The notes under the pieces were generated by a model. It saw only the letters and a list, made by a program, of their open reading frames with translations. It ran no database searches and was not told the DNA's origin. A stretch of DNA of 23,272 nt from Paracoccaceae bacterium (lineage in GTDB: Bacteria > Pseudomonadota > Alphaproteobacteria > Rhodobacterales > Rhodobacteraceae): assembly GCA_026709725.1 (NCBI GenBank), contig JAPOSK010000025.1, forward strand, positions 1-23,272, written 5' to 3'. A program made the position numbers and the translations under genes. The stretch's first letter is position 1. Every line of letters starts with the position of its first letter. This document shows positions 1 through 12,116 of this stretch, piece by piece.

Positions 1-174
1 ACCCCCGAAAAAAATGTTTCCGCCAAGCAATTGTCTGCAACTAACAGGGGAAGGCAAGCAGATTCGGGAAAAAATTTTCGAGGGCGGAATGTGTTCAAAA
101 CTAATACAAGGGGGCGGCTCGCCGCCTCGAACCACCGGTACCGGTCGGGCATACGCGAATCCGCATTATGCCCA

Positions 175-204
175 AACCGCCCATAACTGTGATTATGGGC
201 GGTT
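175..204. repeat. Perfect 12-bp inverted repeat
   Basis: Arms AACCGCCCATAA (175-186) and TTATGGGCGGTT (193-204) flank the six-base loop CTGTGA. No T tract follows on either strand, so a simple intrinsic terminator is unlikely. It may be a protein-binding dyad or a structural element of the control region. Confidence 0.75.
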
Positions 205-377
205 CGCACATCGCCCATCGCCATGCGCAAAATCGGTCGGCGTTTGTGATCCTGACCGGTTCTGAGCTCGCTCTGCCTATTCGCTGTGTCCTGTGATGCC
301 CATTTGCCTACCCACGAAGTGCCAATCAGACGTTGCATTGTGCTAAGTCATTGATTTATCGTCTGCGGCAAGGTCAA

Positions 378-509
378 TTCCCACGAAGTTTTTGCCGAAT
401 GCAGGAATCCGTGCAGGCGTGCATCGCCCATGCACTTTTTGATGCAGATGAATTGCTAGTGGAATCAGTGGGTTATGTGACTTCCCCCGAAGTTATCGGC
501 AAATGCAGG
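378..509 (+). repeat. Imperfect direct repeat, two copies
   Basis: Copies at 378-405 and 482-509 match at 23 of 28 positions. Both start TTCCC, contain CGAAGTT and end AATGCAGG. A shorter third copy of the core CCCACGAAGT lies at 311-320. Spaced direct repeats of this kind could be iteron-like binding sites. Confidence 0.6.
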
Positions 510-539
510 GAATTACATACCCCGTGAGAGGAAATTCAT

Positions 540-580
540 GTTTACGCTTTCGTTATTATTATATTTACGGAAGCGTAAAC
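540..580. repeat. 14-bp dyad with AT-rich loop
   Basis: Arms at 540-553 and 567-580 (core GTTTACGCTT and AAGCGTAAAC) pair at 13 of 14 positions around a 13-base loop made only of A and T. A second, wider dyad, AATTCATGT at 533-541 with ACATGAATT at 609-617, encloses it. Alternating TA tracts follow. The arrangement suits a DNA-unwinding element or an initiator site. Confidence 0.65.
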
Positions 581-890
581 ATCGATTTCTATATATATAT
601 ATACATTTACATGAATTAGTAGATATATATATATGTGGCCGATTTTTCGGCGTGCTGCATGGTTTTGTGCATGGTTATCCTGTTGATTTCGTTGTAGTTT
701 TTGGCTTTCCCACGGATTTCGGGCGGTCTCTGCATTGTCCTGTGATTGCCGGTGCGGGCGTGCATTGTGGCCTGCATTTCCGCTCGGTCTGGCCGTGCCG
801 GGCGCGTCGCGACGCGCCGGAAATTCGCCGGCGCCGGTGGTTCGGGCGTTGTCCTGGTTGGCGGAAAATGCGGATTTGTGCAAAAAATGG

Positions 891-920
891 TTGACGAATG
901 CAGATAAACTGGTTTACACT
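891..920 (+). promoter_or_regulatory. Sigma-70-like promoter for the left operon
   Basis: TTGACG (891-896) and TACACT (915-920) are separated by 18 bases. The predicted start, near 927, leaves a short leader containing the small hairpin GCCGGA/TCCGGC (931-945) before the ribosome binding site of the gene at 964. Confidence 0.6.
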
Positions 921-963
921 GCACTCGACCGCCGGATTTTCCGGCCTACTCAGGAGCAAGAAA

Positions 964-1284
964 ATGTACCGGAATGAAGCAGAGCTTTGGATTGCCAACG
1001 TAGACGCCAACGACGCGGGCGTTGCTATTGATGCAGAGCGTCGCCGCACCTTTTGCGGGGACGAGATCTGGTTGATGCCGGACGGATCGGCGGCGTTGCG
1101 GGCCAAAGACCGCTGGCACGCTCTGGCAGCAGGTGATCCTAAAGTGTGGCCCGAAGCAATTCGGCTAGAGGATCACTACGATCCTGATAGCGTCCAAGTG
1201 CTGAGACTCAGCGAGGAGGGCGGCAGCGGCGTTGAGGAGTACGACAACGCTGTTGCGGCGATGGAAAACAGCGATTGGGCCTGA
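964..1284 (+). CDS. Small hypothetical protein, first gene of left operon
   Basis: This encodes a 106-residue acidic protein that I do not recognise. It has no membrane segment or signal peptide. The N-terminal half alternates short hydrophobic and charged stretches (MYRNEAELWIANVDANDAG at the start) and could form a beta-rich domain; the tail is acidic. The ATG at 964 is chosen because AGGAGCAAG sits just upstream at the normal distance, and the same GGAGCAAGAAA string precedes the starts at 1818 and 2601. An in-frame upstream start lies inside the promoter and is unlikely. As the first gene after the promoter at 891-920 it is probably expressed early, but its role is unknown. Confidence 0.7.
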   Translation: MYRNEAELWIANVDANDAGVAIDAERRRTFCGDEIWLMPDGSAALRAKDRWHALAAGDPKVWPEAIRLEDHYDPDSVQVLRLSEEGGSGVEEYDNAVAAMENSDWA

Positions 1285-1298
1285 GGAGGGCCGGAACC

Positions 1299-1409
1299 AT
1301 GCTGAAAATCGTTTCAGCGGCGGCGTCGAAGTTGCTGGCACGTTGGTTGACCGGGACGACCCGGCCACTGCGAGATATTGGAGTATCTGGGAATTTGATC
1401 TCGCGGTGA
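1299..1409 (+). CDS. Possible short basic peptide
   Basis: A 36-codon frame starts at ATG 1299, nine bases after the strong Shine-Dalgarno GAGGAGG (1283-1289). The product is basic (MLKIVSAAASKLLARWLTG at the start) with an amphipathic N-terminal half. A competing frame shifted by -1 runs to 1444 and looks more protein-like at its end (RYWSIWEFDLAVIREIRR), overlapping the next ATG at 1435. Either the peptide is genuine, or a longer gene is broken by a frameshift or read by frameshifting. No family is recognised. Confidence 0.35.
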   Translation: MLKIVSAAASKLLARWLTGTTRPLRDIGVSGNLISR

Positions 1410-1505
1410 TCCGCGAGATCAGGAGGGCAGAGTCATGCAAATGACCGAGACCAAGACCGGGTGCGCATCGTACGTGCGCACACATCGCAAGTGGACAGAT
1501 GACGC

Positions 1506-1742
1506 TTGGCCGGCAGGGATCAGCTCGACGCCGACGAGCGCATCAAGACAGTCACGGACTATCGCGAAGATGGATTCGTGCCGAACAGCTACAAATGGCC
1601 GGCGCCAGGCACTCGAAAAGTGTGGCATAGGGATGGTCGCGTCGAGTCCGAGCCCTACGACCGCAAGCGGAGCGGCGGAGTAGGCCCGTATCTGGTGGCG
1701 AAGTCCGCCAAAGGAGGTGTAATCAAACCGAAAAGCAAATAA
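1506..1742 (+). CDS. Small hypothetical protein, unusual start
   Basis: The frame ending at 1742 encodes a charged, protein-like sequence (DERIKTVTDYREDGFVPNSY near the N-terminus; basic tail VIKPKSK). Its only start is TTG at 1506, without a convincing ribosome binding site. Upstream, AGGAGGG precedes ATG 1435 and ATG 1441 in another frame, whose first 25 or so residues (MQMTETKTGCASYVRTHRKW) also look genuine before turning into serine/threonine-rich shadow sequence. The likely explanations are one gene starting at 1435 with a -1 shift after position 1502, or two overlapping small genes. Function unknown. Confidence 0.45.
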   Translation: MAGRDQLDADERIKTVTDYREDGFVPNSYKWPAPGTRKVWHRDGRVESEPYDRKRSGGVGPYLVAKSAKGGVIKPKSK

Positions 1743-1747
1743 AGTAG

Positions 1748-1790
1748 TTGACAAGGCGTGCAAGTGTCGATTACTCTGCATTTGCACGCC
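1748..1790 (+). promoter_or_regulatory. Possible promoter containing a 12-bp dyad
   Basis: A perfect TTGACA (1748-1753) is followed 18 bases later by a weak TACTCT (1772-1777). Between and beyond them lie arms GGCGTGCAAGTG (1755-1766) and CATTTGCACGCC (1779-1790), which pair with one G-T wobble around a 12-base loop. The dyad overlaps the promoter, so it may be an operator; as RNA it would form a hairpin just ahead of the ribosome binding site at 1805-1811. Confidence 0.5.
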
Positions 1791-1817
1791 ACACACACAA
1801 CCAGAGAGGAGCAAGAA

Positions 1818-1997
1818 ATGGCTATTGAGATAGTGACGCAGAAAGCGGGGGCGCGGGGCTATACCGCGTTCTTGTACGACGACGGAGTGCTGCTCGTCAA
1901 TGGTGGAGGGAGAACCACCAATAGCGCGGTGCGCGACGCGGTAAAGCGCTACTTGGGCAAGTACATCGTGCAAGTCGATGCGGAGGGCGAATCATGA
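1818..1997 (+). CDS. Small hypothetical protein
   Basis: This 59-residue protein begins MAIEIVTQKAGARGYTAFLY and reads like alternating beta strands followed by one amphipathic helix (SAVRDAVKRYLGKYI). I do not recognise it. The start at 1818 is supported by GAGGAGCAAGAA directly upstream. Its stop overlaps the next start as ATGA at 1994-1997, so the two genes are probably translationally coupled. It lies behind the dyad-containing promoter at 1748-1790 and may be controlled by it. Confidence 0.65.
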   Translation: MAIEIVTQKAGARGYTAFLYDDGVLLVNGGGRTTNSAVRDAVKRYLGKYIVQVDAEGES

Positions 1998-2512
1998 GCG
2001 CCTATCTGTGCGAGCCGATGGAAATAGGCCAAGTGGCGGCGCGTTTTGGCGCGGATCGCGATATTGGGCCGGCATTGGAGAGGCAAATCCAGTATTACTT
2101 GGACTTGCCGAGAACGCCGCCGATGGCCGGCACGCTGGCCGAGAAAATCGCCGAGATTTTGGCGGGCGCCAACGCCGAAAGCGTTATGCAGCGTTACGGG
2201 CATGGCGATTTTTCCGAATTGCCGGGCAATGGCAAGTGGTCGAGCCTATTCGAATATGTCGCCGACTGCCGCAAAGCCTGCCGGGCAATGGGCAGTTCCG
2301 GCCTGAATGCCGCCGATGCCGCCGTTTCGGTGGCGAATATTTGGTATCAGTGTTGCGAATCGCAATACTGGCATCTGAACATTGGCAATCATCTGCTGCG
2401 TGATATGGCGTGGGATTTGATGGCCATTTTGTCGCGGCGGGCGGGCGGACGCAGTTACCGCCAGCGGCGGAATGATACGCCGATGGTATCGATTACCGAA
2501 TTGCTTGCTTAA
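1994..2512 (+). CDS. Hypothetical helical protein
   Basis: This encodes 172 residues, mostly predicted helix (for example GTLAEKIAEILAGANAESVM), with no membrane segment and no recognised domain. Cysteines near the middle (DCRKACRAM) and in WYQCCESQYW are spread out and do not make an obvious metal site. The start overlaps the stop of the preceding gene by four bases. After its stop comes the first two-hairpin RNA module, which separates it from the clamp-like gene at 2601. Function unknown. Confidence 0.7.
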   Translation: MSAYLCEPMEIGQVAARFGADRDIGPALERQIQYYLDLPRTPPMAGTLAEKIAEILAGANAESVMQRYGHGDFSELPGNGKWSSLFEYVADCRKACRAMGSSGLNAADAAVSVANIWYQCCESQYWHLNIGNHLLRDMAWDLMAILSRRAGGRSYRQRRNDTPMVSITELLA

Positions 2513-2514
2513 TC

Positions 2515-2600
2515 GTGAGGGGCGCGGGCCGCAAGGCCCGCGTTAAACGACGGCCCCGGTCCCAAGTCCGGGGCGAAACTCAACCGAAAGGAGCAAGAAA
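2515..2600 (+). promoter_or_regulatory. Two-hairpin intergenic module A
   Basis: Order: GTGAGGGG (2515-2522); hairpin CGCGGGCC (2523-2530), loop GCAA, GGCCCGCG (2535-2542); linker TTAAACGAC; hairpin GCCCCGG (2553-2559), loop TCCCAAGT (2560-2567), CCGGGGC (2568-2574); then AACCGAAAGGAG as ribosome binding site. The same plan with different stems recurs at 3491 and 4625. Conserved loops with compensated stems point to a structured RNA, either cis-regulatory or a processing site. Confidence 0.75.
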
Positions 2601-3488
2601 ATGATCGAAAATCCTGATTTCGAGATAGAGCTGCCAGTTGCGCCCCTGCGGGCTGCGGTGGCGGCTGCGGGGGTAAAAGACCTTCGCGACAGCATGAACC
2701 ATGTCTACATCGGCGTGGAACATAATGACGGGCTGTTGTCCGTGATGGGAACCAACGGCCATGTGTTAATGCGCTGGACGTGCCCACTGAACGACGAAGC
2801 CAATTTCAGCGGCCCTAACAGGCTGTTCAAGGTGAAGGGGGCGCGTGGCGTGGTGACGGAGAACGAGCGGCACGTCACGAGTCCCGGCAAGCATCAGAAC
2901 GGCGGCGAATCCCGCTATTTCTACTTCCCCCGCGATTTGCTGCCGAAGGGCGGCAAGCTGATCGACAGGGCGCTGATTCAAGGGCGCTATCGCATGGAAA
3001 CCTACGGGGAAGGCGAAGACCGGCGCGAAGTGGCGCGGTCTCTGGACTTGGCCGTAAATGGCCGCAACAGCAAAGGACTCGGACGCGCGCCGCAACCCTG
3101 GCAGCATGGCGAAGTCGGGCCTATCGGACGCGCGCCGGGCTACGAGCGGGTGTTCATTTCGCCAAGCGACAGCGGCAAGCAGATGAACCGCGATGTGGTC
3201 ACTTGCGCGAAGACGCTTGCGGTGCTTTCCGATGTCGCCAAGCATCTGAGCAATGGCAACGGCGCGATGAATGTCGAATTTCTTCGCTGCCAAGAGGAGG
3301 ATCAGCGGCTGAACCAATGGATGGACGACATGAGAGAGCGCGATTGCCGGTGTTTTGAGGCCGAGGAGGAGCGGGAAAAGATGACCGCTGGCCAAATGAC
3401 GCCGGCGCCGCACTATATCCACTTCGGGCTTGGCGCGGGGAGCAAGGCGCGGGCATTCATGGTGTACATGCCAACCAGACGCTACTAA
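2601..3488 (+). CDS. Probable sliding-clamp-like protein
   Basis: A 295-residue protein. Its N-terminal part (residues about 10-60: LPVAPLRAAVAAAGVKDLRD, then MNHVYIGVEHNDGLLSVMGT and NGHVLMRW) resembles the first repeat of DnaN-type beta clamps, where a TNGH/TDGH turn is characteristic. The C-terminus, AFMVYMPTRRY, resembles the terminal strand of beta clamps (MPMRL-like ending). Length is shorter than the roughly 370 residues of bacterial DnaN. If correct, it would form a ring that tethers a polymerase or nuclease to DNA. The start follows GAAAGGAG. It is flanked by modules A and B. The clamp assignment is an inference from pattern; structure prediction would test it. Confidence 0.6.
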   Translation: MIENPDFEIELPVAPLRAAVAAAGVKDLRDSMNHVYIGVEHNDGLLSVMGTNGHVLMRWTCPLNDEANFSGPNRLFKVKGARGVVTENERHVTSPGKHQNGGESRYFYFPRDLLPKGGKLIDRALIQGRYRMETYGEGEDRREVARSLDLAVNGRNSKGLGRAPQPWQHGEVGPIGRAPGYERVFISPSDSGKQMNRDVVTCAKTLAVLSDVAKHLSNGNGAMNVEFLRCQEEDQRLNQWMDDMRERDCRCFEAEEEREKMTAGQMTPAPHYIHFGLGAGSKARAFMVYMPTRRY

Positions 3489-3490
3489 TC

Positions 3491-3569
3491 GTGAGGGGTG
3501 CCCGCGCAAGCGGGCATTAAACGACACGGCCAGTCCCAAGTCTGGCCACACAACCGAAAGGAGAACGAC
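3491..3569 (+). promoter_or_regulatory. Two-hairpin intergenic module B
   Basis: GTGAGGGG (3491-3498); hairpin TGCCCGC (3499-3505), loop GCAA, GCGGGCA (3510-3516); linker TTAAACGACAC; hairpin GGCCAG (3528-3533), loop TCCCAAGT (3534-3541), CTGGCC (3542-3547); then AACCGAAAGGAG. Both stems differ in sequence from module A yet pair perfectly, while linker, loop and ribosome binding site are the same. Confidence 0.75.
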
Positions 3570-3794
3570 ATGAAGCAAATTATCGCAACAGTGGGAGTTA
3601 CCGTTTCTTTCGAGAAGGGGGAGCTCAGGGCCGTACTATCCAAAAACGGCCATTGCACGGCAGACACGAAGCTTGCGTTGGGCAGGGGCAAGGAGAGCGC
3701 CTACAGCATGGACGAAGCCGCAGAATGGGCCTCCGAAGGGGTGGCGGCGCAGTTGCTGTACGAGATGGGATGCTTTGCTGCACACAATAACTAG
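3570..3794 (+). CDS. Small hypothetical protein
   Basis: This encodes 74 residues beginning MKQIIATVGVTVSFEKGELR, a beta-rich N-terminus followed by a helical stretch (MDEAAEWASEGVAAQLLYEM). No domain or transmembrane segment is recognised. ATG 3570 is fixed by GAAAGGAG six bases upstream. It sits between module B and the divergent module D. Function unknown; small size and operon position suggest an early accessory phage protein. Confidence 0.7.
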   Translation: MKQIIATVGVTVSFEKGELRAVLSKNGHCTADTKLALGRGKESAYSMDEAAEWASEGVAAQLLYEMGCFAAHNN

Positions 3795-3867
3795 CGAGGG
3801 TGTTCGTAATGCGCCTGACGGATCGGGCGCATTGCGGGCATATCGCCCACAGCCAAAGGAGAACGAT
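3795..3867 (+). promoter_or_regulatory. Variant two-hairpin module D
   Basis: GCGAGGG, then hairpin AATGCGCC (3808-3815) with GGCGCATT (3826-3833) around a 10-base loop, then GGGC (3836-3839) with GCCC (3845-3848) around ATATC, then CCAAAGGAG. The order matches modules A-C but the TCCCAAGT loop and the TTAAAC linker are missing, so it may be a decayed or distinct relative. Confidence 0.45.
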
Positions 3868-4416
3868 ATGAACGTTGAAGCATTTGAGACCTTCGAGGTC
3901 GAGCAGGACGACCGGCGGTACGTGGTCGAATTGCATTACGACACGAGCGCGGGTGCGCCGTGGGAAAACCAGGATTTTCTTGGCGCGGTGGAAGTTGCAG
4001 GCCACCGAGAGGCGCATTTGGGCGAAGAAGTTGTACTCAAGTCGCCCGGTGAGCGGTTTATCGCCGGTTCGCATCACTACCCAAGCAGCGGGGTGTTGTA
4101 CGACTTCGCCGAAGCTGTGGCAGAGGCCAAGAAGTGGGTAACGCCGGAGGAGGGCGAAACGAAGGGGCAGGCCGCCGTGAGGCTGGCCAACCAGGATATG
4201 GACACAATCCGTGGTTGGCTGCGCGACGATTGGTTCTATGTCGGCGTGGTGGTCAAGGACATGACCGACACTGATTGCCCGTGCTGCGCGCCTTCCGCGT
4301 CGCTGTGGTGCATCGGATACGAATACGGCGACGAGAACGACAAGGGCGGGCATATCCGCCGCGAAGTGTTGCCGGATCTGATTCACGAGGTCGAGGGTTA
4401 CAGGGAGGCGGCATGA
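3868..4416 (+). CDS. Hypothetical acidic protein with cysteine cluster
   Basis: A 182-residue acidic protein, MNVEAFETFEVEQDDRRYVV at the start. Residues around 130-145 contain DTDCPCCAPSASLWC, four cysteines in a short stretch that could bind zinc, though the spacing does not fit a family I know. The middle has a likely helix (SGVLYDFAEAVAEAKKW). The start follows CAAAGGAG. Its stop overlaps the next start (ATGA at 4413-4416), so the downstream small protein is probably coupled to it. Function unknown. Confidence 0.7.
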   Translation: MNVEAFETFEVEQDDRRYVVELHYDTSAGAPWENQDFLGAVEVAGHREAHLGEEVVLKSPGERFIAGSHHYPSSGVLYDFAEAVAEAKKWVTPEEGETKGQAAVRLANQDMDTIRGWLRDDWFYVGVVVKDMTDTDCPCCAPSASLWCIGYEYGDENDKGGHIRREVLPDLIHEVEGYREAA

Positions 4417-4628
4417 GGCGCAAGAAGTGGAAGCCGGTGCAGCGTATCGGGCGGGCGCGGTGGAAGGTGGAATACCACCTTCCAGTGGCCGACTGGCTGC
4501 CGAAGCGGGCGGAGCGCTTGCCGCCGCCGTGGGTGGCGTATTTCGGGCAGCGGACCGATGCCGACAGGCTTGTGCGGCTGCTGGCCAAAGACGGAATCAA
4601 GGCCGAAGTCGAGCCTTACAAATGGTGA
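4413..4628 (+). CDS. Small basic hypothetical protein
   Basis: A 71-residue, strongly basic protein (MRRKKWKPVQRIGRARWKVE at the start) ending in a compact alpha/beta stretch, YFGQRTDADRLVRLLAKDGI, that looks like a SPOR- or ACT-sized fold but is not assignable. The charge suggests nucleic-acid binding or interaction with its acidic upstream neighbour, with which it shares a four-base overlap. The GTGAGGGG of module C begins inside its last codons and stop. Confidence 0.65.
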   Translation: MRRKKWKPVQRIGRARWKVEYHLPVADWLPKRAERLPPPWVAYFGQRTDADRLVRLLAKDGIKAEVEPYKW

Positions 4629-4698
4629 GGGGCGGGCCTAGCGGCCCGTTAAACCACAAGGGCGGTCCCAAGTCCGCCCGCAACCAAAGGAGAACGAC
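4625..4698 (+). promoter_or_regulatory. Two-hairpin intergenic module C
   Basis: GTGAGGGG (4625-4632, overlapping the upstream stop codon); hairpin CGGGCC (4633-4638), loop TAGC, GGCCCG (4643-4648); linker TTAAACCACAA; hairpin GGGCGG (4660-4665), loop TCCCAAGT (4666-4673), CCGCCC (4674-4679); then AACCAAAGGAG. This third copy again has different, fully paired stems with the same second loop. Confidence 0.75.
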
Positions 4699-5160
4699 AT
4701 GAAATTGTCAATGACCGAGGGCCTTGTGCCCGATTACGGGCCAAGCGTGGAGGTGCTGCTGCGCGACTTCACGGGCCTGCTGGAAGACCGGGGGTTCGAC
4801 AGCGTGACGCTGATCGACTTCGACAACGGCGCGACCGATTCCGTGCGGCACCAATATCTGGTGAAAGCGGATCAATCGCCCTGCGTGCTGCACCGCGACC
4901 AAGAGAGCGGAGAGCCGCGGATTATCGTGGACGGCATCGAGGCCAGCGATTGGTACTCAAACGCTTGCGGTATCGAGTTCGAGACCGAAGAGGACCGGCT
5001 GATTGCTTTTCACCACAAGGTGAGTGCGCTGATTGGGGAGTTTGTGTTGCAGATTCGGCCAGGCGCGATGGATGAGGAGCAGTTGGAGCGGTGGCGCAAC
5101 GGCCACAACGCCCTGGTGGAGGCTTGCCGCCACTTCGAGGGAGGCGAATATGAAGACTGA
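4699..5160 (+). CDS. Hypothetical acidic protein
   Basis: A 153-residue acidic protein with no recognised domain. It begins MKLSMTEGLVPDYGPSVEVL; the middle reads as beta strands (VTLIDFDNGATDSVRHQYLV) and the C-terminus is helical (EEQLERWRNGHNALVEACRH). ATG 4699 follows CAAAGGAG of module C. The end overlaps the next gene by eleven bases. Function unknown. Confidence 0.65.
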   Translation: MKLSMTEGLVPDYGPSVEVLLRDFTGLLEDRGFDSVTLIDFDNGATDSVRHQYLVKADQSPCVLHRDQESGEPRIIVDGIEASDWYSNACGIEFETEEDRLIAFHHKVSALIGEFVLQIRPGAMDEEQLERWRNGHNALVEACRHFEGGEYED

Positions 5161-5413
5161 AACCGAGATTGCAATGGAAAAGCTGCAAACGGATTTGATC
5201 GGCAAGATTTACTCAGTCGATAGAATCTACATCGAAACCGAGGTTTTGTTCCACAGCAATGTGGTGCAAGTCACAACGGTCCAAGCCATGCATCTGGTCA
5301 AGGAGGCGCTGGATTACTACCGGGAGAACGATATGGATATTGATGATTTCGACATGGACAGTTTTGGCCGGTTCGAGAGTGGCGATTTGTTTCTGAATAC
5401 AAGGGAGTGGTGA
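5150..5413 (+). CDS. Small acidic hypothetical protein
   Basis: This encodes 87 residues, MKTETEIAMEKLQTDLIGKI at the start, largely predicted helix, with a very acidic segment ENDMDIDDFDMDSF near residues 60-75. The start at 5150 follows GAGGGAGG inside the preceding gene, so translation is probably coupled. The acidic run could mimic nucleic acid or bind a basic partner; that is speculation. No family recognised. Confidence 0.6.
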   Translation: MKTETEIAMEKLQTDLIGKIYSVDRIYIETEVLFHSNVVQVTTVQAMHLVKEALDYYRENDMDIDDFDMDSFGRFESGDLFLNTREW

Positions 5414-5414
5414 A

Positions 5415-5564
5415 ATGACTGAAGCAATCAACCTTGTGTTCGGCACCGGCTTGTTGCTGCCCATCATTTGGGTGGGCATCAAGTTGGGCGACGAGTTCGC
5501 CCTTTGGGTCGAGCAATGGATGCGGCGGGCTTCGGCCCGCCGTGGGGGGCGGGCAGATGGATAG
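5415..5564 (+). CDS. Small single-span membrane protein
   Basis: A 49-residue frame too short for most gene callers. It starts MTEAINLVFGTGLLLPIIWV, giving one hydrophobic segment at about residues 6-24, then an acidic stretch and a basic tail (RRASARRGGRADG). AAGGGAGTGG upstream supplies the ribosome binding site, and the frame begins two bases after the previous stop and overlaps the next start. Its 3' end encodes a perfect hairpin with a TTCG loop (5523-5542). Function unknown. Confidence 0.5.
   Translation: MTEAINLVFGTGLLLPIIWVGIKLGDEFALWVEQWMRRASARRGGRADG
5523..5542 (+). repeat. 8-bp hairpin with TTCG tetraloop
   Basis: CGGCGGGC (5523-5530) pairs perfectly with GCCCGCCG (5535-5542) around TTCG, one of the most stable RNA loops. 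It lies inside the end of a small membrane-protein gene, 14 bases before the next start at 5557, with no T tract, so RNA stability or translation control is more likely than termination. Confidence 0.6.
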
Positions 5565-5979
5565 AACCCGCGTTATGGCAGTCGCGGAGATCGTCGATCT
5601 TCGCGGCGAGCCGGTGGAGTTGCTGAAAATCATCCACCAAGAGTTCCAATCCCTGTATGAGCGGTGGCGGTCTGCCGGCGCTTTGCTGGACGTCTCGGAC
5701 GAGGCGGTGTCGAAGCTGGCGACGATTCCGATCAACGCGATTCACGCCGAGTTGACCGCAAACAGCACTCTGCGCGGACGGCTGCGAAGCTATCCCACCG
5801 ACAACGACCGCGTTTCGGCGCGGGATTGGGCGCGGGTGCTTCGGTTGTTCGCCGAGAGCGATGGTTCGCCAAAGGCGGCGGTGCGGGCATGGATTGACGT
5901 GTTTTGCCACGAGCCGGAGTCGGAGCGCGGCTTCATGCGGTCGATTTGCGACTGGTTCACGGGAGGACGACGGAAATGA
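5557..5979 (+). CDS. Hypothetical helical protein
   Basis: A 140-residue protein, nearly all predicted helix (AEIVDLRGEPVELLKIIHQE; SARDWARVLRLFAESDGS), without membrane segments or recognised motifs. ATG 5557 is preceded by GGGGGGCGGG, a poor but purine-rich binding site, and overlaps the upstream gene by eight bases. Its stop overlaps the next start as ATGA. The tail DWFTGGRRK is basic. Its place next to the helix-turn-helix gene suggests a regulatory or DNA-associated role, which is not shown by the sequence. Confidence 0.65.
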   Translation: MDRTRVMAVAEIVDLRGEPVELLKIIHQEFQSLYERWRSAGALLDVSDEAVSKLATIPINAIHAELTANSTLRGRLRSYPTDNDRVSARDWARVLRLFAESDGSPKAAVRAWIDVFCHEPESERGFMRSICDWFTGGRRK

Positions 5980-6308
5980 GCGAAAAGCATCAAATCGACG
6001 AAATGATTGCGCTGCGCGAAGGCGGGGCGACGTACAAGGAGATCGCGGATCACTTCGGGATCACGCGGCAGGCGGCACACAAGCGGCTGAAGGAATACGC
6101 CAGCGGCACGGAAGCGGAGAAACAGCGGATGCGGGAGTTCCAGCGGTGTGCGGATGTCGAGAAGTTGGTGTACTACGCTTCCTGCACCAATATCCCCTGG
6201 CGGGAGGTTGCGGAGCAAGCGGGGTGCAGGGAGACAAGCGTGAGGTCGATGGCCGCGTACCACTGCAAGCGGGTGGGGGTTGCAATCGTCACGCCGCGCA
6301 GTGCATAA
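5976..6308 (+). CDS. Helix-turn-helix DNA-binding protein
   Basis: A 110-residue protein with a clear helix-turn-helix at about residues 18-42 (ATYKEIADHFGITRQAAHKR), of the type seen in sigma-factor region 4 and recombinase-like DNA-binding domains. A second similar unit follows at about residues 68-92 (IPWREVAEQAGCRETSVRSM), so it probably binds DNA through two tandem HTH units. It ends the left operon, directly before the terminator at 6332-6360. Likely a transcription regulator or terminase-small-subunit-like protein; no terminase gene is in the window, so regulator is preferred. Confidence 0.7.
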   Translation: MSEKHQIDEMIALREGGATYKEIADHFGITRQAAHKRLKEYASGTEAEKQRMREFQRCADVEKLVYYASCTNIPWREVAEQAGCRETSVRSMAAYHCKRVGVAIVTPRSA

Positions 6309-6331
6309 TCAAACCGCTTGATTCACCTTTT

Positions 6332-6360
6332 GCCCCGGCACCCAGCCGGGGCTTTTTTTT
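6332..6360 (+). terminator. Intrinsic terminator of left operon
   Basis: GCCCCGG (6332-6338) and CCGGGGC (6346-6352) form a 7-bp stem with a 7-base loop, followed by eight T residues. It works for the + strand only; on the - strand no T tract follows. The convergent primase-helicase gene stops only three bases beyond the T run. Confidence 0.9.
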
Positions 6361-6363
6361 GGC

Positions 6364-9063
6364 CTAGAAAACGTGGAATCCGGCCTCTTCGACTGTTTCG
6401 CGTGGCAGCAAGGTCGATCTGTACATGGTGGGGCCAAACTTGAGCCGCCGCCGCTGGCCCGATTTCGTCTTTGAGGGAACAGCCCCGCGCAGTTTGGTGA
6501 TGTATTCATCCAAGTCGATGTTCTGCCAGTGCGAGTCGCGCAGGAGCCGCTTGTGTTCGGGGTGCTTCTCGGCCACCACCAGATGCTCGGCTTCTATCAT
6601 CAGCCCGTAGCGCCGGCACGTGTCGCCCCACAGTTTGCGCTTTGCCGCCGCGTCATTGCTGTAGCCGTTTTCCTCGTCGGCGAACAGTTCCGGGTCTTTC
6701 TCCCACGACGTGAATCCGAGTTGCAGGGCTTCGGCGAGCGACTTCTCGGGATAGGGCGGGCAGCGCACCTTGTAGGCCAGAATCGTGCCGAGAGGCCCGT
6801 ACTCGTCCGATTTCTGCTCACGGCGCAGCCCCAAGCGCATGGCCGGATCGCCCATCAGGAAGGAAGCGCCAGCACTGAGAGCGCCGCGTATCTGGCTTTC
6901 GCGGGTGGCGACACCGGCGCGGATGTACTCTTTTTCGATGTTCCGCGCTGCGGCGGCTATCTTGGCCGAGTGCAGAATAATGTGGCTTCGGATTGCCAGG
7001 CACTTCGCCGGTGTCGTCGCGGCTTCGATTTTCCTCTCCACTTCCAGCCAGTTCTTTACGCCCTGATCCGACAGGCGGATCGGGTAAATACGCTGGATGT
7101 TCGCCTCGGACAGTATCGGGCGGTCGATGGACGACATGAACAGGGAGAAACGCGGGCGCGTCGAGATAACGCCGCCGTCCTGCCGACCGCGAAGGCGCAT
7201 CCCGTCGCCGCTTGTGGCGATGCGTAGCAGGTTGAGGATGCCGGTCTGCGCCCCTTCGCGGCCCCTCTCCGGTTCAAACTCGTCGAGCATGGCGGGCAAT
7301 GCGGAATCGGTGGAAAGCGCGGCCAAGCCCGCTTCCGTGGCGTTTGCCAAGGGCATGACCAAATCGCCGAATATCGGCTTGAGCATGGAATCCAGGACGT
7401 AGGTCTTGCCGGTGCCGGCGGCGGCGGTGAGCCAGACGGCTGGCCGGAAGCGCAGCGCCCCGCCGACCAAGCTGGTCACTATCCAGCCAAGCAACACGTG
7501 GCCATGCTCTGGCGTGATCCAGCGGTAGCCCATGACGGCCTCGGCGAAGTCCCGCGCATACTGCGCGGCGTTTTTGTCGGCCACGACGGGGATGCTCGGC
7601 CCCGGCAGGTAAATCTCGGTGTCGTAGGGTTCGCTCAAGCTCTTGGTGTCGCGCAGGATTCCCTCCGCGTCCTCGTACAGCAGGCGGTTGCCGGCGTGAA
7701 ACATCACCTTTTCGTCGCCTTCGGGTGTTTTGTAGGCCCGCGCCCCGCGCCGCCAGAAAATCGTGTTGTTCAGGTCGAGTTCGCCGCCCTTCTCCGCCGC
7801 CCGGATCATGGCGTCGGCCCACGCCCGCTTGTGCGCTTGCGTCCACTGGTTGCCGCCGGCAACCGCGTCCCACCACGAAGCCGGGGCGATTTGCAGCAGG
7901 CAGCCCTCGGCGGTCAAAGCGCCTGGTGGGAAGTGGTAAATCTTGTGCGTCTGCTTCGATTGGACGCAGATTTTGTCGCCGATCATGCCCATGATGCGAA
8001 AATACGGGGTGTTGGCGAGTTTGTTGGCCGGTATCTGTTGGTCGATGTCGAGCGCTTTGGGGCTGATTACCTCGTCGTAACGCTTTGCGCCGCCGGCGGC
8101 GTTGAGGAATTGCAGCAGTTTTTCCCATCCGCCTATGGCGATTGCGTCGGCGATGTCGTAGCCGTCGTCCCCCGGCGGCACGACGAGCTTGACCTCGCAC
8201 TGGTTGGAGAACAGATGCTTGGCGACGTTCTTGGCGAATTTCCGCCCCGCCTCGTCCGCGTCGGCCCAGATCAACACTTTGTGTCCGTACAGCGGACTCC
8301 AATCCGTGGTCTCGATGCGCTTGGATGAGCCGCCGCAAGGCGAAACGATGTTTGGCCGCATCCGCTTTCCTTCCTTGTTGACCACGCGGCGGGCCAATTC
8401 GACGCATTTCTCCCCCTCCACCACCCAGGTCTGAATGGATTTGTCCTTTGCGGCGGCTGCTCGAAGGCGGGCCGAAGCCTCGGCGATGTTGTACAAGGGC
8501 AGCCGGTCAAGCCTTTCCTGCTCCGGCACAGTGTCGCTGGCGGGGCCGGCCACCCAATACCCGTCTGCAAAACGCCGCTTGGTGAGTTGCAGAAACGTCT
8601 TGTTCCGCTTTCCGGTGGGGTTGTCCCATTCGTACCGGGCGACGACGAAAAGAAGCTCGCCCGCCTCGTTGGTGTAGTTGTACTCGGCGACCTTGCGGCG
8701 GTGGCCGTCCTTGCCAGTAGCGTCCGGGATGCCGAAAGAAGTCTTGGGCAGTCGCTTGTTGGCCTGCTCGCCCTCGCGCTTGCGGTTGATCTGCGAGCCG
8801 ATGTGTTCGTCGGTCGCGCCCATTTTCCGCAGCTTGTCAAAGGCTTCCTTTTTCGCGAGGCCGCGTATGTCGGTCAAATAAGTGTACGTCCCCCCCTTGA
8901 TGCCGCAGCCGTGGCAGAAATAGCGGTCGTGCGCCACGTTTATCGACATGGACGGGGACGAGTCCTCGTGGGACGGGCTGAAACAGCGGATGGTTTTCTC
9001 CGCCCCGCCCGCCTCGGGCAAGTGGATGCCGTCCTCGGCGAGCAACAATTCAAGTATCGACAC
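6364..9063 (-). CDS. Phage primase-helicase (CHC2-Toprim-ATPase)
   Basis: An 899-residue replication protein that would prime and unwind DNA at the fork. A zinc finger lies at about residues 27-53 (C27, H32, C50, C53; RCFSPSHEDSSPS and FCHGCG). A Toprim domain carries VEGEK (about 215-219) and the acidic pair in WADADEAG (about 266-273). The C-terminal ATPase has Walker A AAAGTGKT (about 547-554) and Walker B MLDEFEP (about 592-598), in the DUF927-like style of phage and plasmid primases. The GTG start at 9063 is chosen because it overlaps the upstream stop as TAGTG and lies just before the zinc finger; longer in-frame sequence is shadow. Last gene of the - strand operon. Confidence 0.85.
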   Translation of the reverse strand: MSILELLLAEDGIHLPEAGGAEKTIRCFSPSHEDSSPSMSINVAHDRYFCHGCGIKGGTYTYLTDIRGLAKKEAFDKLRKMGATDEHIGSQINRKREGEQANKRLPKTSFGIPDATGKDGHRRKVAEYNYTNEAGELLFVVARYEWDNPTGKRNKTFLQLTKRRFADGYWVAGPASDTVPEQERLDRLPLYNIAEASARLRAAAAKDKSIQTWVVEGEKCVELARRVVNKEGKRMRPNIVSPCGGSSKRIETTDWSPLYGHKVLIWADADEAGRKFAKNVAKHLFSNQCEVKLVVPPGDDGYDIADAIAIGGWEKLLQFLNAAGGAKRYDEVISPKALDIDQQIPANKLANTPYFRIMGMIGDKICVQSKQTHKIYHFPPGALTAEGCLLQIAPASWWDAVAGGNQWTQAHKRAWADAMIRAAEKGGELDLNNTIFWRRGARAYKTPEGDEKVMFHAGNRLLYEDAEGILRDTKSLSEPYDTEIYLPGPSIPVVADKNAAQYARDFAEAVMGYRWITPEHGHVLLGWIVTSLVGGALRFRPAVWLTAAAGTGKTYVLDSMLKPIFGDLVMPLANATEAGLAALSTDSALPAMLDEFEPERGREGAQTGILNLLRIATSGDGMRLRGRQDGGVISTRPRFSLFMSSIDRPILSEANIQRIYPIRLSDQGVKNWLEVERKIEAATTPAKCLAIRSHIILHSAKIAAAARNIEKEYIRAGVATRESQIRGALSAGASFLMGDPAMRLGLRREQKSDEYGPLGTILAYKVRCPPYPEKSLAEALQLGFTSWEKDPELFADEENGYSNDAAAKRKLWGDTCRRYGLMIEAEHLVVAEKHPEHKRLLRDSHWQNIDLDEYITKLRGAVPSKTKSGQRRRLKFGPTMYRSTLLPRETVEEAGFHVF

Positions 9064-9326: not shown

Positions 9327-9697
9327 CAGCAGGTCCACCCCGCGCATTTCTGCAATTCGATGCGAATATCCGGCGGAACCTTAATCTTGTGGCGTTCCAA
9401 CCCCCGCAGAAGGGTTTCGGCGGCAGAGGCTCTGAACTCCGTTGGCACCACCCTTAAGCCGGCACCGAAAATCCAAAGCGAAACCCGCGCTTCGACGTAA
9501 TCTTTGGCCTGGTCTCGGTCGGCAAAGCATTCCCCGGAGTCGATCATTCCCGAAAGGGCACACCACCCGCGCCATTCGTTTCCGGTTTCGCCCTTGGCGC
9601 GAAGTGAATTGTATTCAACAGCGCCGGCCCTCCAATGGCCTAGCATTCCGATCTCACCGCTTCCATGTCCCTTGCGGGGCTTCCAATCCAGTTTCAT
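9326..9697 (-). CDS. Hypothetical protein
   Basis: A 123-residue protein with many tryptophans and glycines (MKLDWKPRKGHGSGEIGMLG at the start), followed by a helical stretch and a likely amphipathic segment AKDYVEARVSLWIFGAGLRV. No recognised domain. The ATG overlaps the methyltransferase stop as ATGA and has AGAGGAATCAAGC upstream. It may be a small DNA- or membrane-associated factor, but nothing in the sequence decides this. Confidence 0.65.
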   Translation of the reverse strand: MKLDWKPRKGHGSGEIGMLGHWRAGAVEYNSLRAKGETGNEWRGWCALSGMIDSGECFADRDQAKDYVEARVSLWIFGAGLRVVPTEFRASAAETLLRGLERHKIKVPPDIRIELQKCAGWTC

Positions 9698-10845
9698 GCT
9701 TGATTCCTCTTGTTAATCACGAAGTGATCCACCATGTCGATGCGCTCGCCTAGCCAGCCCAACACGTTCTGCCCTATCGCGTTGCCAAGCAGCGCGTACC
9801 GGGCCGTGTTCGACATCGGTTTGCCGTTTGGCCCAAGAACGGCTGTGTAGAGGTCGGGCAACCCGAACAGCCGCTCGCATTCCAGCGGCGTCAATCGCCG
9901 TACCATTTTGCTCTGCAACACACCGTTCACGTTTTGGTTCGACATGACGGGGCCAGCCGATCCGTCATAGAACGCCGGGTCTTGGGCGCTGTTGAATCCA
10001 GCCACCGCCGAATCCGATCCCACAATGATGGTGTGGCAGGGGTCGCCAGGTTTCGGGTTGGCCCGATTCTCCCCGCTGGTAATCTGATTCAAGTCGAATG
10101 GAATCAAATTCTGGCATTCGTCTCCCGCCGGCCCGCCGGTGCCTGTCGCCCACTTGCAACTGACTGTTCCAGCCACCAGCGCCTCGGCCTCTTCTATTGT
10201 GCTTCCGTAGCCGCCTCCGCCATCAGCGCGTCCCTTAAATGTGGGGGCAACGCCCTCCCGCGCCTTTCGGCCCGGAGGAGAATGCCCCGACACGCAATGG
10301 GGCTCAAGCAAAACTCCCGCAGGTGGTCGCCAGTCTCCAAAATATCCGACAACGAACACACGCCGCCGTCGTTGGGGGATGGCACGCGGGAAAAATTGTG
10401 TTCGGAAATATTGAACGTCAAGGATTCGGTAGGCGACACAATACCCGATGTCCCCCAACGCCCCGACAAAGGCTCCATAAGCCCGTCCTTGGTTCTGCGA
10501 CAAGACGCCGGGGACGTTTTCCCACACCAACCATCGCGGCCTAAGTCTCTCAGCAAGTTGTACATACTCGATTGCCAAGTTGCCACGCGCATCATCCAAG
10601 CCTTTTCGCTTCCCGGCGACACTGAAGGACTGGCATGGGGTTCCTCCGCAAACAAGTTCAACTGGGCCACAATCTTTCTCCTCGATTTGCGTGAAGTCGC
10701 CAAAGTTCGGGACATCCGGGTAGTGGTGCGCGAGTACGGCGGCTGGCCATTCGTCGCTTTCCGCGAATCCGGCGCACTCCCACCCCAACCGCGACCACGC
10801 CACGTGATCCGAGCCGATGCCGCTGCAAACTGAAAGGTAGCGCAT
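9694..10845 (-). CDS. DNA (cytosine-5) methyltransferase
   Basis: A 383-residue enzyme that methylates cytosine at C5 using S-adenosylmethionine. Motif I SVCSGIGSDHVAW lies at residues 5-17, motif IV with catalytic cysteine (GGTPCQSFSVAGKRKG, C71), motif VI ENVPG at 109-113, motif VIII QRRRRV at 158-163, and motifs IX-X near the C-terminus (GNAIGQNVLGWLGERI). Between VIII and IX is a glycine-rich target-recognition region. No restriction endonuclease partner is visible, so it is probably an orphan phage methylase that masks host restriction sites. Its start overlaps the upstream methylase stop as TGATG. Confidence 0.92.
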   Translation of the reverse strand: MRYLSVCSGIGSDHVAWSRLGWECAGFAESDEWPAAVLAHHYPDVPNFGDFTQIEEKDCGPVELVCGGTPCQSFSVAGKRKGLDDARGNLAIEYVQLAERLRPRWLVWENVPGVLSQNQGRAYGAFVGALGDIGYCVAYRILDVQYFRTQFFPRAIPQRRRRVFVVGYFGDWRPPAGVLLEPHCVSGHSPPGRKAREGVAPTFKGRADGGGGYGSTIEEAEALVAGTVSCKWATGTGGPAGDECQNLIPFDLNQITSGENRANPKPGDPCHTIIVGSDSAVAGFNSAQDPAFYDGSAGPVMSNQNVNGVLQSKMVRRLTPLECERLFGLPDLYTAVLGPNGKPMSNTARYALLGNAIGQNVLGWLGERIDMVDHFVINKRNQA

Positions 10846-12116
10846 CAGCCAACCTCCGAAAACAGCGGCGCGTCCTCGCCAACGCGCTTTCTCGCGATGC
10901 TGGCGTACTCCTCGCTGATCTCAATCAATATCGCGTCCCGATGCAGCCGGTCGGCCACCAGCGCGGTTGTGCCGCTGCCGCCAAAAGGGTCCAGCACGGT
11001 CGCGGGCACTGGCTCATGCGGTGCGCACCCGCAAGTTTGCTCCCATCCAGTGGTGCTGATCGTCTGCTGATACTCGCCGCCGCGCTCCCGTGCGGCCTGC
11101 CTCGCCAAAGACATCCGGTGCGCGTTGCTGCCGACCTCGTAGGCCGACTCCGTTTTCCCATCGTGCGGCGATTCGCTTTTCGCCACAACGCGCTTCCACG
11201 GGGAGCCGCACTCCGGGCAAACCCCATGCTCCGAAGTGCCCGCCTTCACGCAAGGTTCGACCAGCGCGGGCGGGAACGTCGCGAAATGGGCACCCCTGTA
11301 CGGCGCGGTGGGGATTTTCCAAACATTGCGAAGATGGGCACCCGGCGGCACCTCCCGCTTTTCTCCAGCGGAGTACGTCGTCTTTTCCCGAACATTGTGC
11401 CTCGCGTCCTGCCCCTTGTATCCCGCGCCGGACGCCCAACCAGCCGGCACCCTGCCACTGAAATTGTGCGGCAGTTTCTTTTCATCCACCCCGAAAGTGC
11501 CGCCACGGAAATTGGGGGAAACGCCTTCGCCCCCGTACCGGGCCAGCGTCGAATCCGCAGTTCCGGTGCGGACAGCCACCGCGTCGTAGTAATACTTGCG
11601 GGACTTGGCAAACAGGAAAACCTTCTCGTGCGCCGTCACCGGCCTGTCCGTCACGCTCTCCGGCATCGGATTCGGCTTGTGCCAAATGATTTCGCTGCGG
11701 AGCCACCATCCATCGGCTTGCAAAGCAATCGCTACGCGGGCGGGCATCATCATCAGGTCTTTGGGCTTGAGGCCGGTGCTTTTCCATGCCCCGTCGTCTC
11801 CCCGTAGCGAACCGACATTGCTGGCCTGCTTCGGCGAATTGCCGCAGTAGCCGCCCTTGCCGCTCCCCGCGTAGGCGTCCCCGTAGTTCATCCAAAGCGT
11901 CCCGTCCTCCCGCATCACCCGCCGAACCTCGCGGAAAACCGCGACGATGTTCTCAAGATGCGCCGCAAAGGTGGACTCAAGGCCGATCATGCGGTCTTCG
12001 CCGTGATACGACCGAAGCCCCCAATACGGCGGCGAAGTCACCACGCAATGCACGGACTCCGCCGGAAGCTCCGCCAGCTTTTCAAGGCAGTCGCCGACCA
12101 AAATCTTGACGGTCAC
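10845..12116 (-). CDS. Beta-class N4/N6 DNA methyltransferase
   Basis: A 423-residue enzyme of the N6-adenine/N4-cytosine family (PF01555 type). The catalytic motif TSPPYWGLRSY is at about residues 27-37, before the cofactor motif VLDPFGGSGTTALVADRL near residue 380, the order that defines the beta class. SPPY favours N4-cytosine methylation but does not prove it. A CPECG knuckle and further cysteines lie in the recognition region. The GTG start at 12116 overlaps the upstream stop as GTGA. Likely an orphan, protective phage methylase working alongside the C5 enzyme. Confidence 0.9.
   Translation of the reverse strand: MTVKILVGDCLEKLAELPAESVHCVVTSPPYWGLRSYHGEDRMIGLESTFAAHLENIVAVFREVRRVMREDGTLWMNYGDAYAGSGKGGYCGNSPKQASNVGSLRGDDGAWKSTGLKPKDLMMMPARVAIALQADGWWLRSEIIWHKPNPMPESVTDRPVTAHEKVFLFAKSRKYYYDAVAVRTGTADSTLARYGGEGVSPNFRGGTFGVDEKKLPHNFSGRVPAGWASGAGYKGQDARHNVREKTTYSAGEKREVPPGAHLRNVWKIPTAPYRGAHFATFPPALVEPCVKAGTSEHGVCPECGSPWKRVVAKSESPHDGKTESAYEVGSNAHRMSLARQAARERGGEYQQTISTTGWEQTCGCAPHEPVPATVLDPFGGSGTTALVADRLHRDAILIEISEEYASIARKRVGEDAPLFSEVG

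Follow-up and report, generated by a model that had tools for sequence, protein, structure and literature searches.

Three gaps between plus-strand genes on contig JAPOSK010000025.1 of a Paracoccaceae bacterium (GenBank assembly GCA_026709725.1) carry the same repeated module, which raises the question of what this RNA is and what it does for the genes around it. The whole contig, 23,272 nucleotides (nt) long, is hereafter called the window; its parent bin comprises 3.15 Mb in 634 contigs. Common to the three gaps are GTGAGGGG, a hairpin with the loop GCAA, GCAA or TAGC, the letters TTAAAC, a second hairpin with the loop TCCCAAGT, and AACC(G)AAAGGAG. The original prediction, made from the letters alone, had listed these parts and their positions, and all were present as described. 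It had recognised no described family; however, the modules each score 58 to 60 bits against Rfam RF02684 (Twister-P5). On their sequence, we assign the window modules to the type-P5 twister ribozymes, and we consider it about 74% probable that these self-cleaving RNAs punctuate a polycistronic phage transcript.

The RF02684 scores of copies 1, 2 and 3 were 59.7, 58.6 and 58.3 bits (gathering cut-off, 37.6), and the likeness is not due to chance, because the cmscan E-values were 2.5e-10, 4.6e-10 and 5.6e-10, respectively, against 4227 Rfam families. Model positions 1 to 58 were covered end to end in each copy (spans 2514-2571, 3490-3545 and 4624-4677). The window copies follow the P5 element order, namely, P2 with GAGGG, a closed P1, UAA, P2' and P4 with a UCCCAAG loop. 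The two-hairpin architecture first proposed was therefore incomplete, as it overlooked helix P2 (UCGU/ACGA in copies 1 and 2, UGGU/ACCA in copy 3) and two pseudoknots, T1 (GGG of GAGGG with CCC of UCCCAAG) and T2 (AC with GU), both of which are complementary in all three copies. In 3/3 copies, UAA stands immediately 3' of P1 and forms the predicted U-A cleavage step; U-A is given as the cleavage site of the twister class in a review (PMC6154101).

All three copies lie on the plus strand, each placed by its model score, its fold and its anchors. Copy 1 (2513-2574) has P2 at 2513-2516/2547-2550, T1 between 2519-2521 and 2561-2563, the P1 hairpin at 2522-2543, the predicted cut between positions 2544 and 2545, and P4 at 2553-2559/2568-2574. 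The corresponding parts of copy 2 (3489-3547) are P2 at 3489-3492/3521-3524, T1 between 3495-3497 and 3535-3537, P1 at 3498-3517, the predicted cut between 3518 and 3519, and P4 at 3528-3533/3542-3547. Copy 3 (4623-4679) has P2 at 4623-4626/4653-4656, T1 between 4629-4631 and 4667-4669, P1 at 4632-4649, the predicted cut between 4650 and 4651, and P4 at 4660-4665/4674-4679. No fourth copy over the cut-off was found in the window or in the 3.15-Mb bin, which held 8 weak matches of at most 19.9 bits, and none was found in 60 relatives of the bin (one weak match, 24.7 bits). Likewise, RF03160 (Twister-P1, with an open P1) gave no match at an E-value of ≤0.01 in the genome of the window.

P1 and P4 formed in the minimum-energy fold of all three window copies, though their letters differ. 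P2 formed in copies 2 and 3 and was absent from copy 1, where the flanking letters paired instead; the fold program cannot draw pseudoknots. Fold-energy z scores were -3.8, -3.3 and -1.9 for copies 1, 2 and 3, and 11/200 shuffles of copy 3 folded equally well. Folding energy alone is weaker evidence than the Rfam scan.

Further copies were sought by two rounds of pattern matching across 2.9 million viral contigs, which gave 35 and 101 stretches, and in a scan of the GTDB species genomes, which gave 4. The covariance model (CM) search took 80 listed stretches of the 101, and 3 of the other 21 lie in searched records. In total, the Rfam model was run on 100 further records, mostly picked by P5 letters, with a match limit of E 0.01 in one CM search and 0.001 in the other two. 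Matches were detected in 96 of these records, 93 of them over the cut-off, and with the window included there were 301 matches in 97 records (277 matches over the cut-off). The lack of further copies, or a loss of pairing in them, had been named in the original prediction as what would speak against it; copies were numerous, and their pairing was kept, as described below. One copy was present in 48 records and at least two in 49, in none of which (0/49) the strands were mixed. The largest sets had 20, 15, 14 and 11 copies per record, and at least three copies, up to 20, were found in 33 of the 92 viral records found by P5 letters, with a median gap between copies of approximately 550 nt. When records with at least three genes in common were joined, 59 of them fell into 47 groups, a grouping that draws on the fetched stretches rather than on complete genomes; the ribozymes therefore occur in numerous phage lineages. 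Scanning 287 kb of array sequence (16 stretches, 15 records) with Rfam returned 131 Twister-P5 matches and one tRNA, with nothing else over the cut-off.

An in-house descriptor with strict rules yielded 135 copies but overlooked many of those detected by the CM, and it was dropped. A letter-based anchor lost 75/256 copies because the T1 letters vary, and it was replaced by an anchor losing 3; this T1 variation stems from further copies in the same records. Near-identical records were G062/G080, G127/G149/G153 and G129/G137, together with G136/G156, judged by equal CM scores. Only the counts of homologues, similarity and junctions leave out G080, G149, G153 and G137.

Both pseudoknots covary among these copies. 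An equal-length set of 32 distinct copies has 96.6% of its cells paired, as opposed to 61.3% after shuffling and at most 43.9% in slid controls, and changes on both sides occurred in 20/21 pairs; P1 covaries at all eight of its pairs, and T1 is paired in 32/32 copies. Among 230 distinct copies, all three T1 pairs were Watson-Crick in 220, and the T1 letters change together (GAGGA with UUCCAAG, GAGUG with UCACAAG, GAUGG with UCCAAAG). T2 was A-U or G-C in 200 of the 212 placeable copies, compared with a shuffled mean of 108. The RNA structure, tertiary pairs T1 and T2 included, is thus under selection, which bears out what had been suspected from the stems of the three window copies. The scissile U was U in 203 of the 212 copies, a number biased by the seed patterns, which required U.

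At least two different sets of T1 letters were present in 22 of the 33 records holding at least three copies. Varied sets within one record perhaps keep adjacent ribozymes from cross-pairing.

The position of the ribozymes between genes is fixed, in a frame of stop codon, ribozyme, Shine-Dalgarno sequence (SD) and start codon. Gene calls were made by simple open reading frame (ORF) and SD rules, and the flank counts exclude 45 of the 301 matches, which came without fetched surroundings, and 3 more that could not be anchored. An ORF of at least 30 amino acids ended near the core in 244/253 copies. Its stop codon started at -8 to -1 from the GA in 154 of these 244. The commonest start was -5 (57 copies), where TAG is frequent, as in TAGGTGAGGG; in 13 cases it was -1, which places the stop codon inside the core. 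An SD, a start codon and an ORF followed 248/253 copies, with the SD beginning a median of 13 nt beyond the modelled end of P4; the start codon lies a median of 52 nt beyond the predicted cut. In one uniform test, 122/145 and 40/46 P5-pattern copies had both flanks, compared with 9.6% of 3000 randomly chosen places; the test omits matches lying too close to the end of a contig (145 of 154 and 46 of 50 kept). The window copies show the same layout on the plus strand. The TAA stops of ORFs 1994-2512 (stop at 2510-2512) and 2601-3488 (3486-3488) each start 7 nt before the GA of copies 1 and 2, respectively, and the TGA stop of the ORF ending at 4628 (4626-4628) lies inside copy 3 (GGTGAGGGG), 1 nt before its GA. 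Downstream, AGGAG and ATG span 2589-2603 (ATG at 2601), 3559-3572 (ATG at 3570) and 4688-4701 (ATG at 4699), at 56, 51 and 48 nt from the predicted cuts of copies 1, 2 and 3.

Several co-oriented ribozymes lie between genes of one likely transcription unit, three of them in the window and at least two in 49/97 records. The earlier suggestion that the element spaces or processes genes in one message is likewise supported. In 30 array regions, read as a simple gene chain, 252 borders comprised 121 with a ribozyme, 42 that overlap, 47 of 1 to 40 nt and 42 longer ones, the last being counted by script as without a ribozyme. Furthermore, the homologues of ribozyme-led genes in other records were also ribozyme-led in 40/68 cases, compared with 19/118 for controls (Fisher p = 3e-9), and the homologue pairs that were printed shared 29 to 71% protein identity, with their stems rewritten. 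The ribozymes tend to stay with their genes, and this retention argues against both recent insertion and a role as nothing more than recombination joints.

One array stretch (G150, 24000-43000) holds another repeated element at gene borders, near positions 6204, 10765, 11332 and 11737 of that stretch. A long hairpin with CTGGTG at its end is followed by a GGTG..CACC-type hairpin and AAAGGAG; no Rfam match over the cut-off other than Twister-P5 was detected in the stretch.

We propose that each copy would cut the message between the U and the A of the UAA after P1, close behind one gene and approximately 50 nt before the next, and so convert a polycistronic phage message into shorter messages. 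In the P5 permutation, the cut would split the ribozyme in two. On the upstream message, the closed P1 hairpin plus a 2',3'-cyclic phosphate would form the 3' end; the downstream message would carry a 5'-OH at its start, followed by the P4 hairpin and then the ribosome binding site (RBS). Both new ends may resist host exonucleases and the 5'-phosphate-dependent RNase E, and the genes could gain mRNA stability of their own without any protein. Since the stop codon abuts the core, a terminating ribosome should cover GAGGG, and the cut would wait for its departure, being delayed while the upstream gene is translated. P1 is dispensable for twister cleavage according to the review (PMC6154101). The P1 hairpins found here are strong (median, -13.6 kcal/mol in 230 distinct copies) and covary despite this dispensability, which fits a second use of P1, such as 3'-end protection. 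It is possible, though we hold it doubtful, that protein-free mRNA punctuation of this kind is general to many unrelated phages. In such phages, up to 20 twisters, mostly abutting or overlapping a stop codon, might cut the message gene by gene or in small blocks, with P5 favoured since both new ends are hairpin capped and with every cut gated by a terminating ribosome, which would place the timing of mRNA maturation under the control of translation.

Several observations weigh against punctuation by type-P5 ribozymes or limit its reach. Cutting we infer from family membership, architecture, position and structural conservation, which were themselves observed, and the end-protection and ribosome-delay steps are conjectures from geometry. 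The choice of records by exact P5 core letters inflates both array size and core-letter conservation. No ribozyme preceded 28 of the 68 homologues of ribozyme-led genes. A single ORF fills only 85/189 intervals between neighbouring copies, and therefore many products would remain polycistronic. The P5 permutation is also not alone at gene borders: P1-order copies lie between phage genes as well (both flanks in 54/94 and 8/16) and form small sets of up to 5 per record, with at least three copies in 6/41 records. As these P1-order twisters, which a cut would not split in this manner, occupy such borders too, the P5 permutation is preferred without being essential. At least three pattern matches per contig were present in 10/85 P5 and 4/83 P1-order contigs, a difference that was not statistically significant (p = 0.16).

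At least two pattern matches per contig were found in 24/85 P5 versus 11/83 P1-order contigs (p = 0.022), and by CM the 33/92 P5 records with at least three copies compare with the 6/41 P1-order records (p = 0.014, at unequal E-value limits). The CM-scanned P1-order contigs were 42 chosen from 83 and mostly the longer ones. Overall, the preference of arrays for P5 is modest. The idea that arrays are of type P5 only was rejected, as RF03160 matches were found in G101 (66 and 47 bits) and in G127/G149/G153 (44.5 bits); these matches either outscore the P5 copies of the same record or are separate from them, and they are below the RF03160 cut-off of 67.2. RF03160 scores were mostly under this value, exceeding it in 0/34 records of one scan and 4/42 of another. 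P3-order patterns, judged by letters and not by a model, gave 5 and 10 stretches with one match per contig, and both flanks were present in 3/5 and 2/9.

If the twister folds but the hairpins themselves are what is selected, as mRNA-end or RBS structures, cutting could be slow or absent. The strength of P1 despite its dispensability (PMC6154101) would suit this reading. So would the unbroken helix of at least 8 bp in 27 of the 34 borders of 41 to 200 nt counted as ribozyme-free (stretches L179 to L246 and the window), a count that has no shuffled control and includes at least one border (L238) where the anchor had skipped a CM match scoring 36.7 bits. However, T1 and T2 are under selection too, and a simple hairpin has no need of such tertiary pairs; we consider it unlikely that hairpins alone are the object of selection. 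It is less probable again that the copies are recombination joints, i.e., short repeated islands at gene borders that aid cassette shuffling in the manner of attC sites or linkers. The near-constant placement at gene borders would agree with such a role, as would the two identical copies in each of four records (in G063 the pair sits at the two contig ends) and the somewhat greater likeness of copies within than between records (P1, 0.55 versus 0.46; P4, 0.71 versus 0.61; RBS stretch, 0.59 versus 0.43). Yet the letters diverge while the pairs stay, even within one phage, the ribozymes are kept at homologous genes more often than control genes acquire one, and joints in DNA need no covariation of pseudoknots.

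A translation switch, an antiterminator or a protein-binding site, each acting without self-cleavage, would fit the closeness of the SD to P4 and the precursor fold of copy 1, in which part of the SD is paired with 2505-2510. In contrast, the conserved letters are those of the twister core, and the median unpaired value of the SD in 226 copies was 0.54 in the precursor and 0.56 in the product, with a change of >0.2 upwards in 33 copies and downwards in 22. A general SD switch, one of the functions offered by the original prediction, was rejected because predicted accessibility is about equal before and after the predicted cut, although part of the SD is paired in copy 1. As the cut hardly alters SD accessibility, its benefit would not be RBS release in general, and we find roles without self-cleavage very hard to credit. 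Ribozyme cut ends, with their 5'-OH and 2',3'-cyclic phosphate, are RtcB substrates, and the cut pieces could in principle be re-joined into spliced or circular RNAs. However, RtcB (PF01139) was found in 0/72 viral records searched, many of them fragments, versus 9/14 control genomes, which makes phage-driven rejoining unlikely; host RtcB might still act. The authors of a study of hammerhead ribozymes report that they could not detect such products (PMC3088659). Rejoining appears the least probable of all these alternatives, and self-cleavage that punctuates a phage message is the reading that we prefer.

The window itself looks like phage, judging from matches to protein families (integrase, primase, helicase, RecT, DNA methyltransferase, exonuclease and endolysin). 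All three ribozymes are contained in a run of small plus-strand ORFs at approximately 960-6308, after which a terminator-like hairpin with eight T lies at 6332-6352; such sites numbered 8 in the whole scan versus a shuffled mean of 6.2, i.e., hardly above shuffles. As read from the ORF list, the ribozyme-free borders from copy 1 onward are overlapping or very short, with the sole exception of 3795-3867. This wide gap in the same gene run holds one long stem-loop at 3794-3846 (plus strand) with 19 pairs in its unbroken part (-37.5 kcal/mol; z, -5.2; 0/200 shuffles equally stable). No twister match and no Rfam match up to an E-value of 5 was detected in the gap. By its look, the stem is perhaps an RNase III-type site that does the same job as the ribozymes in the same operon.

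A 13-pair stem at 1755-1790 was observed in the gap before an ORF starting at approximately 1818 (z, -3.2; 1/200 shuffles as stable) and could be either an operator or an RNA hairpin. TTGACA was read by eye near it, at approximately 1748, where the promoter scan lists no promoter. Two adjacent DNA methyltransferase genes at 9694-12116 on the minus strand have phage-family matches. Searches of cultured-phage DNA with window positions 1-7900 and with one array gave no match, and the window primase shared 24 to 31% identity with those of cultured phages among the matches listed (15 of 32 records).

At the RNA level, the modules do not differ from RF02684, with which they share the element order, the core letters and the T1 and T2 pairs. 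Known phage systems resemble the arrangement to different degrees. RNase III cuts the early polycistronic mRNA of phage T7 between genes at stem-loops, which is the same kind of processing; there a host enzyme cuts, whereas here the RNA would cut itself. Clustered hammerheads of prophages are described as several ribozymes flanking single genes or short blocks, and three tandem arrangements cut in vitro, the triple from A. tumefaciens also in E. coli (PMC3088659). They share with the present system the clustering of self-cleaving ribozymes between genes and the same inferred role (PMC3088659), but here the ribozymes are of the twister class and form long arrays with a tight layout, with stops abutting or inside the core. 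Theta ribozymes (hepatitis delta virus-like) of gut phages are likewise phage encoded, self-cleaving and proposed to mature RNA, in their case tRNA 3' ends, whereas the window twisters lie at protein-gene borders (PMC10879173). A paper from 2023 describes twister and hammerhead ribozymes as enriched near other ribozymes and Mu-like phage genes and gives the biological reason as unknown (PMC10085705). Twister arrays that reach 20 copies and keep a fixed frame of stop, ribozyme, SD and start were not found in the literature examined; the original twister paper or others may record them.

The RNA class is therefore known, the arrangement has a hammerhead precedent, and the window copies are new members of a known family, ordinary as ribozymes and interesting as a system. 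Their covarying pseudoknots provide a large natural set for work on twister structure. Because the arrays are long, keep a fixed frame and hold copies that stay with homologous genes, the idea of processing can be tested directly in phage operons, and the long rows in other phage genomes suggest that these phages divide long transcripts of their own into smaller messages.

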